This document shows, piece after piece, positions 13,386 through 44,958 of a stretch of DNA of 64,000 nt (position 1 is its first letter; each line of letters opens with the position of its first letter). The notes below the pieces were generated by a model. The model had not been told where the DNA came from. It worked only from the letters and a program-made list of their open reading frames with translations, and ran no database searches. A program made the translations under genes and the position numbers. The stretch is taken from assembly GCF_022539405.1 (NCBI RefSeq), contig NZ_CP054394.1, positions 808,501 through 872,500 of the forward strand, in the 5' to 3' direction. This stretch comes from Natranaerofaba carboxydovora. GTDB taxonomy: Bacteria > Bacillota > Natranaerobiia > Natranaerobiales > Natranaerofabaceae.

Positions 13386-15107
13386 ATGGCTGATTTAGAA
13401 TACTTACTTAAAACACTTAATCGGATAGATGGAAAAGGGTATAAAGCTTATAAGGATATCCAAGGTCAGTATGATTACCTTGAAGGCACGTTATATATAG
13501 ATTATGTCCAGGGGGATCCTTTTGCTAGCCCATCCAAGTTACGTTTCAGGGTTCCTATGAGTATAGCTAATTTTCCTGAGAAGCTTTTTGCCAACAAATC
13601 CAGAAAAGTTGCCCTTGAAGATTATTTGACCAGGGCTTTTTCTAAAGCGTGTAACAAATCAAAAGGAGGAAAAGGTACTGGTAAAAGCGGCATGATCGCT
13701 ATTGATTCTGGGAAACAGGAAGTTTTGGAGAGAACTTCAATGGTTGTGACAAATGAATATGTGGAAGCAAGATTTGTAGTTGGACTGCCTGCCAAAGGCA
13801 GGAAAATTCTAGGTAAAGTATGTGCCGAGATGTTTGAAAAAGAGATTACCGATATAGTTAAAGAATCTTTGCTTTATGAATCTTTTGAACCTCAAAAACT
13901 TGAAGAGCACGTAGCAGTTGTAGAAGATCAAGATTACCTGAGAGATTATCTAAAGAATAGTGGATATATAGCTTTTGTTGGTAATGGCGCAATTTTGCCA
14001 AGAAGAAGTGGAGTAGATGATAGGCCATTAACTAAAGGCGCTGTCAAATTTCAATCCCCTTCTAATTTGGAAGTTGAAATAGAACTGCCAAATCGTGGCA
14101 AAGTGAAAGGAATGGGTGTTAAAGAAGGAGTTACTTTGATAGTAGGTGGAGGTTATCACGGCAAATCCACACTTTTGAAAGCTATCGAAAGGGGAATATA
14201 TAATCACCTTCCCGGTGATGGACGAGAACTTGTGGTATCTTTAGAGGAATCTGTAAAAATAAGAGCTGAAGATGGACGCAAAGTTGAAAAAGTAAATATA
14301 AGTCCTTTTATAAACAATTTGCCTCATGGTGCAGATACCAAAAGCTTCTCAAGCGAAGATGCAAGTGGCTCAACCTCTCAGGCCGCAAACATTATGGAAG
14401 CCCTTGAGATGGGAGCTAAAGCTTTACTATTGGATGAGGATACCTCAGCAACAAATTTTATGATTAGAGATGTAAGGATGCAAAACCTAGTAGCTAAGGA
14501 TAAAGAGCCTATTACTCCCTTTATTGACAAAATTCGTTCAATGTATGCTGACCTGGGTGTTAGTACTGTGCTTGTTGTAGGTGGTTCAGGGGACTACTTT
14601 GATGTTTCTGATAGTGTTATAATGATGGATAATTATGAAGCATACGAAGTTACTAAAGAGGCAAAAGATATTGCTAAAGATTACGAAACTAAAAGATCTT
14701 TAGAAGGTGGAGATAATTTTGGTGAGGTATTATTTAGAACACCTGCAGCAGGCGGTCTTGATCCAAGAAAAGGTAAAAAGAAGAAAATAAAGCAAAGGGG
14801 ACTTCACCAGATTCAATATGGTATAGAAGAGATACTTCTTCAAGATGTAGAGCAACTGGTGGATGAGAGCCAGACCAGAGCCATAGGAGAAGCTATTTAT
14901 TATCTTTATAAAAATTATTTAAAAAATGGATGGTCGCTAAAAGAATCTATTGATAAAATAATGGAAGATATTGATAACAAAGGTTTAGATATTATATCGG
15001 AGTTTAAAGGAGGAGAACATCCAGGGGAGTATGCCAGATTTCGCCCTTTTGAAATTGCTTCTGCTCTAAACAGGCTTAGAAGCTTCTCTGTGAAAACACT
15101 AAAATAA
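13386..15107 (+). CDS. P-loop ATPase of the ABC-ATPase (PF09818-like) family, function unknown
   Basis: The protein of about 573 residues has a Walker A motif, GGGYHGKSTL, near residue 258, and a Walker B-like ALLLDEDTSATNFM near residue 355. In between lies FSSEDASGSTSQAANI, which resembles an ABC signature. The N-terminal 200 residues are typical of this family, which is widespread in Firmicutes without a defined job. There are no membrane segments. ATG 13386 is set by a perfect AAGGAGGTG seven bases upstream. A 223-bp repeat begins 3 bp after its stop. Confidence 0.85.
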   Translation: MADLEYLLKTLNRIDGKGYKAYKDIQGQYDYLEGTLYIDYVQGDPFASPSKLRFRVPMSIANFPEKLFANKSRKVALEDYLTRAFSKACNKSKGGKGTGKSGMIAIDSGKQEVLERTSMVVTNEYVEARFVVGLPAKGRKILGKVCAEMFEKEITDIVKESLLYESFEPQKLEEHVAVVEDQDYLRDYLKNSGYIAFVGNGAILPRRSGVDDRPLTKGAVKFQSPSNLEVEIELPNRGKVKGMGVKEGVTLIVGGGYHGKSTLLKAIERGIYNHLPGDGRELVVSLEESVKIRAEDGRKVEKVNISPFINNLPHGADTKSFSSEDASGSTSQAANIMEALEMGAKALLLDEDTSATNFMIRDVRMQNLVAKDKEPITPFIDKIRSMYADLGVSTVLVVGGSGDYFDVSDSVIMMDNYEAYEVTKEAKDIAKDYETKRSLEGGDNFGEVLFRTPAAGGLDPRKGKKKKIKQRGLHQIQYGIEEILLQDVEQLVDESQTRAIGEAIYYLYKNYLKNGWSLKESIDKIMEDIDNKGLDIISEFKGGEHPGEYARFRPFEIASALNRLRSFSVKTLK

Positions 15108-15110
15108 TAG

Positions 15111-15333
15111 TGATTCTGGTGCAAAAAGTCATATGAACAAAGTTTTGTTTTTAATTGCAATACATCTTGATGAAAAGCAGGAGAAATAAGGTCTAATGAC
15201 AGGATGTCATTAGCTAATCGAACTCAGGACGAGTTCTTTGATTAGGGAACCTTATTTCGACTGCTTACGAATCTTAGATGTATCAATTAAAAACACTATA
15301 GCTTATGTGAATAGACTTTTTGCACCAGAATCA
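15111..15333. repeat. 223-bp MITE-like palindromic element, copy 1
   Basis: Perfect 20-bp terminal inverted repeats: TGATTCTGGTGCAAAAAGTC on the left and its exact complement at 15314-15333. The element is flanked on both sides by ATAG (15107-15110 and 15334-15337), as expected of a 4-bp target duplication. The two halves pair over most of their length. The core forms three stems. P1 is GAAATAAGGT (15183-15192) with ACCTTATTTC (15249-15258). P2 is CTAATGACA (15193) with TGTCATTAG (15205). P3 is CTAATC-GAACTC (15214) with GAGTTC (15231) and GATTAG (15240). No protein is encoded. Confidence 0.9.
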
Positions 15334-15378
15334 ATAGCTAGTTTTAGATTAAAAATTAATTTGTAATGAGGTGTAAAT

Positions 15379-23479: not shown

Positions 23480-23702
23480 TTAATCTGGTGCAAAAAGTTA
23501 TATGAACAAAGTTTAGTTTTTAATTGCAATACATCTTGGTGAGGCAGCAGGAGAAATAAGGTCTAATGACAGGAAGTCATTAGCTAATCGAACTCAGGAT
23601 GAGTTCATAGATTTGGAAGGCTTATCTCGATTGCTGACGAACCTTAGATGTATCAATTTAAAACATTTTACTTTTGTGAATAGACTTTTTGCACCAGAAT
23701 CA
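23480..23702. repeat. 223-bp MITE-like palindromic element, copy 2
   Basis: Same length and orientation as the copy at 15111. The right end is the perfect 20-bp terminus; the left end is slightly decayed (TTAATCTGGTGCAAAAAGTT). ACTT flanks it on both sides (23476-23479 and 23703-23706). The three-stem core is kept: the P2 arm CTAATGAC/GTCATTAG, P3 GAACTC/GAGTTC with a changed loop, and a P1 stem with one mismatch. It lies 20 bp after the hydrolase gene and just before the hisS promoter. Confidence 0.88.
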
Positions 23703-44735: not shown

Positions 44736-44958
44736 TGATTCTGGTGTAAAAAGTCTATTCACATAAATAAAATGTTTTTAATTGATACATCTAAGATTCG
44801 TCAGCAGTCGAAATAAGGCTACCTAACCCAAGAACTCATCGTGAGTCAGATTAGCTAATGACATCCTGTCATTAGACCTTATTTCTCCAGCTTCCTCATC
44901 AAGATGTATTGCAATTAAAAACAAAACTTTGCTCATATGACTTTTTGCACCAGAATCA
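44736..44958. repeat. 223-bp MITE-like palindromic element, copy 3 (inverted)
   Basis: Same length as the copies at 15111 and 23480 but in the opposite orientation. Ends TGATTCTGGTGTAAAAAGTC and GACTTTTTGCACCAGAATCA. ACAT flanks it on both sides (44732-44735 and 44959-44962). Read on the minus strand, the P2 arm CTAATGACA/TGTCATTAG is identical to copy 1, and P3 keeps CTAATC with GGTTAG, a pairing kept through a G-T change. The 456-bp gap between ftsZ and spoIIGA holds this element, a terminator and the spoIIG promoter. Confidence 0.9.

Follow-up and report, generated by a model that had tools for sequence, protein, structure and literature searches.

Intergenic palindromic repeats near gene ends, such as ERIC, NEMIS and REP/BIME, are well known, and MITEs are usually regarded as empty shells. 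The element analysed here is likewise an intergenic palindrome near gene ends, but its sequence is different and it contains a three-way junction, so that it is set apart from ERIC, NEMIS and REP/BIME by description. With IS1182-family insertion sequences and their MITEs it shares terminal repeats of the GATTCTGGTGCAAAAAG type and 6-7 bp duplications; unlike the insertion sequences, it has no transposase gene and carries a conserved structured module. The general kind is already known, as the Bacillus cereus group has bcr repeats that include both MITE-like families (bcr1-bcr3) and predicted RNA elements (bcr10 and bcr18) (PMC3446304). Like the element, bcr repeats are multi-copy and intergenic, some being MITE-like and some having conserved secondary structure, and they often lie in UTRs or between operon genes. 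Whereas bcr repeats are known from the B. cereus group, the module described here spans six families, two transposon shells and two conserved GGA loops, a comparison in which the sequences themselves were set against each other through Rfam only. We conclude that a MITE here carries a conserved structured module which travels independently and has no match in Rfam, and that this module is probably an RNA.

The genome of the host, Natranaerofaba carboxydovora, is a single contig of 3.26 Mb, of which the window, the whole stretch of DNA that was analysed, covers 64,000 nucleotides (G000:C1:808501-872500). The first copy of the element is non-coding and 221 bp long (15112-15332), with ends GATTCTGG...CCAGAATC and a flanking 6-bp duplication, AATAGT/AATAGC. 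Two covariance models were used, R1 describing the Y-shaped core of three stems (P1 to P3) and R2 covering 123 positions; the cores of copies 2 and 3 in the window were located by covariance model. The features are as follows, those of the ends and duplications of copy 1 being taken from the sequence.

15106..15111, no strand: left target-site duplication AATAGT, with 6-7 bp duplications at other copies
15112..15332, plus strand: element copy 1, complete, with IS1182-type terminal repeats GATTCTGGTGCAAAAAGTC...GACTTTTTGCACCAGAATC
15161..15282, plus strand: conserved module (region of model R2), outer helix TACATC/GATGTA and Y core, present in seven genomes
15183..15192, plus strand: P1, 5' strand, GAAATAAGGT
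15193..15213, plus strand: P2 hairpin CTAATGAC-AGGAT-GTCATTAG, loop AGGAT at 15201-15205
15214..15245, plus strand: P3 hairpin CTAATC-GAACTC-AGGAC-GAGTTC-TTT-GATTAG, loop AGGAC at 15226-15230, TTT bulge on the 3' side
15249..15258, plus strand: P1, 3' strand, ACCTTATTTC
15333..15338, no strand: right target-site duplication AATAGC, one mismatch relative to the left
23481..23701, plus strand: element copy 2 (L030), core 23553-23628, one mismatch in P3
44737..44957, minus strand: element copy 3 (L010), core 44810-44885

The positions that the initial annotation had given for P1 in copy 1 are correct; P2 lies at 15193-15213, and P3 at 15214-15245 with its TTT bulge. Its statement that in the other two copies CTAATC of P3 pairs with GATTAG or GGTTAG is right for copy 3, which reads GGTTAG, and needs correction for copy 2, where the 3' arm of P3 reads GATTTG rather than GATTAG, leaving a T-T mismatch, and where P1 has two mismatches. 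Compared with 100 dinucleotide shuffles, the predicted folding energy of the core, -29.3 kcal/mol, has a z of -7.0; the whole element folds at -101.3, with a z of -15.8 relative to shuffles.

The element has the properties of a MITE, being short, non-coding and multi-copy, with 19-bp terminal inverted repeats and a target-site duplication. A DNA search recovered about 40 near full-length copies in the host genome, 81-94% identical, and the genome also has about 50 decayed ones. With as many as two mismatches allowed, the terminal repeat GATTCTGGTGCAAAAAGTC has 160 matches there and a control pattern read backward has none; the surplus ends belong to decayed copies, either single ends or forms of 39-161 bp with both ends, whose breakpoints are nearly all different. 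Perfect 6-bp duplications flank several copies (AAAATT at L077, ATAATT at L078), and duplications of 6-7 bp are found at L207, L210, L214, L227, L228, L229 and L231. The same terminal repeat bounds insertion sequences of about 1.9 kb in distant Clostridia (L130, L131, L137, L138 and L149, with a shared 16-bp start); the transposases tested, those of L131 and L137, score above the cut-off for PF13751, and their best NCBIfam match is the IS1182 model NF033551, at 160 and 154 bits below its cut-off of 270. Searches of the host genome for an IS1182-type transposase gave no match to the L131 protein and none to PF13751, the latter with a working positive control. Because the ends are of IS1182 type and the genome has no such transposase, the element is almost certainly an orphan, non-autonomous and mobile MITE with IS1182-type ends. 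A MITE and a folded core had at first been treated as alternatives; that opposition falls away, as terminal repeats and 6-7 bp duplications make the element a MITE, with the fold as its cargo.

Two loci considered as insertion sequences were rejected: ends at 765168-767110 enclose an arginyl-tRNA synthetase gene, and inverted terminal repeats 1.1 kb apart at L085:1108-2254 enclose a molybdenum-cofactor gene, neither with a transposase. Nor does a deletion common to L083 and L161, at first read as a mobile form lacking the core, bear out that reading: these copies come from different subfamilies and the deletion junction falls within a direct repeat, GGAAGC, which makes parallel slippage likelier. 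At L080:1001-1161 the MITE ends surround a foreign terminator-like hairpin (AAAGCCCTTCTAT...ATAGAAGGGCTTT) that replaces the usual interior. Nearly the same terminal repeat bounds MITEs with a wholly different interior in Clostridia MAGs (L088:5388-5591, L093:3823-3993 and L097:4296-4497), consisting of six or seven consecutive hairpins that the terminal repeats enclose (z -12 to -15). Another genome, G262, contains a 227-bp element (L134:177-403, L136:183-409) with ends GATTCTGCTGCAAAAAGTA, a palindromic branched interior of its own, 56 terminal-repeat matches and no match in Rfam. Neither R1 nor R2 matched the other IS1182-type MITEs, L088, L093 and L097 included. In the host genome near 327500 (L057, about 2663-2900), a terminal-repeat remnant lies directly upstream of a glutaredoxin-like frame, whose active site contains a TGA in frame (TSPG-TGA-GFCDPVKELL) that looks like a selenocysteine codon.

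Several lines of evidence indicate that the fold is maintained. In an alignment of 38 copies from the host genome, both-sided changes affected 7 core pairs, against 2.3 in shuffles, and 21 pairs of the whole palindrome, against 10.1. Summed covariation was 164 against a null of -1 (sd 19); in the tree-based null, the substitutions of each column are kept and moved to other branches. The covariation score was 0.104 for the core and 0.103 for the whole, so the host genome alone would not single out the core. Alleles common to several copies kept pairing in the arms in 16 of 25 cases, whereas private alleles broke it in 33 of 46 and kept it in 13, which argues that resident copies decay while the spreading lineage does not. 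We infer that selection acts on the fold in the copies that spread, not on each resident copy.

Model R1 found 52 matches in the host genome and nine in Natranaerobius thermophilus, of the same order, where the module had been missed by blastn across 60 relatives and was detected by the covariance model. The shell is different there, with ends GGCTCT...AACACAGC, a length of about 255 bp and 8-bp duplications (TTTATATT at L189); the presence of the module in another transposon shell makes it a unit of its own. Run over a sample of the phylum that comprised 398 genomes, R2 yielded 7 carriers from six families, every one with several full-length copies, and best E-values in carriers from 1e-31 to 6e-11, which are rough owing to a short calibration. 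Elements in four genomes (G040, G341, G149 and G081) are 213-224 bp long and have the same end pattern, with 6-7 bp duplications at several copies. In G149, six copies (L206, L213, L219, L220, L221 and L222) lie within 38 kb (1943482-1981555), adjoining repeated rhs-like cassette genes with which they were probably duplicated together. Among plasmids and phages the module was found only on the N. thermophilus plasmid NC_010715.1; four IMG/VR pattern matches were rejected as carriers, since they lie in unrelated DNA and fail the covariance model. No Rfam family, those of CsrB/RsmZ included, matched the module at its gathering score, and relaxing the limit to an E-value of 1 gave no match either.

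Comparison between genomes reveals the same coupling of the arms. The host and N. thermophilus consensuses share 41 pairs, of which 32 are identical, none changed on one side and nine changed on both; by arithmetic, random placement of the 18 changed columns among the 82 paired ones would produce such an outcome less than once per hundred million draws. Over 26 sequences from seven genomes, both-sided changes affect 35 of 46 pairs, with 225 both-sided-change cells against 76 in shuffles and a covariation score of 0.481 against 0.190 when shuffled and at most 0.110 when slid. Judged by shuffled, slid and tree-based controls, the stems covary beyond phylogeny, as those of a structured RNA family do. 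The earlier concern that in a larger alignment stem changes might prove indifferent to pairing is thereby answered, since the stems covary in the host genome, between two genomes and over seven. The Y-shaped core is more than the MITE's own palindrome, and its fold is very likely kept by selection.

The initial annotation had left it open whether the core works as folded RNA or DNA; with selection on the fold now indicated, the choice leans to RNA of the top strand. The loops keep their letters in the seven genomes while their stems change. P3 loops mostly read C-AGGAN-G, with GGA in 25 of 26 sequences, and P2 loops follow A-N-G-A-N, with GGA in 19 of 26; it is gone from P2 in the two copies sampled from G341 and in some from G081. 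On the top strand G-U pairs exceed A-C mismatches by 66 to 23 cells, by 26 to 12 when counted by genome and pair (p 0.034) and by 16 to 6 when counted by pair (p 0.052); inside the host genome the excess is not significant (p 0.11-0.13). An excess of G-U over A-C points to a top strand that works single-stranded, for which RNA is the simplest form. We therefore think it reasonably probable that the module works as RNA rather than DNA, and on balance we prefer, by a slight degree of confidence, a MITE carrying a selected module that works as RNA.

An unlikely alternative, yet the one that survives best, is that the fold acts as single-stranded or cruciform DNA needed in copying or moving the element, for example by being recognised in transposition or replication. 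The mobility of the element and the maintenance of its fold in the spreading lineage are compatible with such a role, as is the strong internal folding of unrelated MITEs with IS1182-type ends (L088, L093, L097, L134 and L143), and centre-deleted copies with different breakpoints suggest that a DNA hairpin forms in the chromosome. However, the module occurs intact in another shell, one with 8-bp duplications, and so does not depend on a single transposase, and both the excess of G-U over A-C and loops conserved on one strand need a strand-specific reader. DDE-type transposition with target duplications is not known to require a folded strand, which also counts against a role as DNA.

The placement of the copies bears on a second alternative. 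Judged by open-reading-frame calls, 77 of the 88 sites in the host genome lie between co-directional genes, at a median of 8 nt past the stop codon. This would suit a transcription terminator acting in both directions, or an element of mRNA 3' ends: a long hairpin with CTTTTTG behind it on either strand would end the transcript that comes from upstream, or stabilise it. Both element ends do present a stem with five T after it, and in Bacillus cereus the bcr repeats are found transcribed as parts of UTRs (PMC3446304). We nevertheless regard a terminator as distinctly improbable, as the three-way junction and conserved GGA loops would be superfluous to it, purging of insertions close to start codons would lead to the same placement, and the five T belong to a terminal repeat that the transposase requires. 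Least probable is that the fold has no function and that imperfect palindromes correct themselves by template switching in replication, the arms changing together without selection: private double changes in single copies and the loss of P3 from L200-L203 of the host genome, which left perfect P1-P2 hairpins with the signature of fold-back copying, indicate that template switching does seem to occur and may contribute to the covariation. Private arm mutations, however, are mostly uncorrected (33/46), yet no uncorrected pair separates the consensuses of the two genomes; moreover, the process would abolish the branch of the Y and would not preserve the letters of the loops across six families in which the stems vary.

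If the selected module does work as RNA, its loops point to a tentative partner. CsrB repeats in hairpin loops have the sequence CAGGA(U/A/C)G (PMC5027483, PMC7652899), and CsrA bridges sites 10-63 nt apart (PMC7652899). The module presents GGA in hairpin loops in a CAGGANG context, and its two GGA loops are about 23 nt apart, inside this range. Counting against CsrA, its SELEX consensus, RUACARGGAUGU, has one base more before GGA than the module loops do (PMC7652899). CsrA is encoded in all seven carriers, and as it is also encoded in 49 of 73 non-carriers, its presence is consistent but weak evidence. In the host one csrA gene adjoins a FliW-like gene, named from its sequence and place, and there is a second csrA. 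CsrB/CsrC/RsmZ-type small RNAs resemble the module in their hairpins with CAGGANG loops, but have about 18-22 sites where the module has two, is mobile, occurs in about 50 copies in the host genome and has no Rfam match.

The orientation of the copies complicates a reading as RNA. The loop-bearing strand is antisense to its co-directional neighbours at 54 of the 77 host sites (p 0.0005), with antisense to sense ratios of 25:10 for full copies and 29:13 for decayed ones; orientation is roughly even in the other carrier genomes. The orientation gives no sign that the loop-bearing strand is preferentially transcribed, and no convincing promoter was found in the window copy. Read-through transcripts would often lack the loops, which counts against CsrA and RNA, and the CsrA idea was at first set aside on this ground, to be resumed once the loops proved to be conserved over genomes. 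The RNA may be made by antisense transcription or from promoters that escaped notice; alternatively, insertions in the sense orientation may be purged as the RNA acts in mRNAs, and such purging is one reading of the bias. In the mechanism we propose, the outer helix and the three-way junction with its two hairpins would form a 123-nt structured cargo of the orphan IS1182-type MITE, a CsrA dimer would bind both C-AGGAN-G hairpin loops, and a transcribed copy would serve either as a small RNA that binds CsrA or as a handle for CsrA on the mRNA that contains the copy. CsrA is the leading candidate for the partner of the module, although a tentative one that we would not expect to be right in most such cases. 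Whether FliW and small RNAs act jointly in any species is called undetermined in a review (PMC7652899).

The shape of this non-coding module, which is missing from Rfam, is the same in six bacterial families and in two transposon shells, which implies selection on its fold. The antagonist of CsrA known from Bacillus subtilis is a protein, FliW. It is conceivable, though doubtful, that a selfish transposon family is spreading CsrA-binding RNA hairpins through Clostridia, as a dispersed, mobile CsrA sponge in FliW-type bacteria built on an RNA module that can change its shell. Should the loops bind CsrA, the module would represent a Csr-type RNA among bacteria that are known to antagonise CsrA with the protein FliW.
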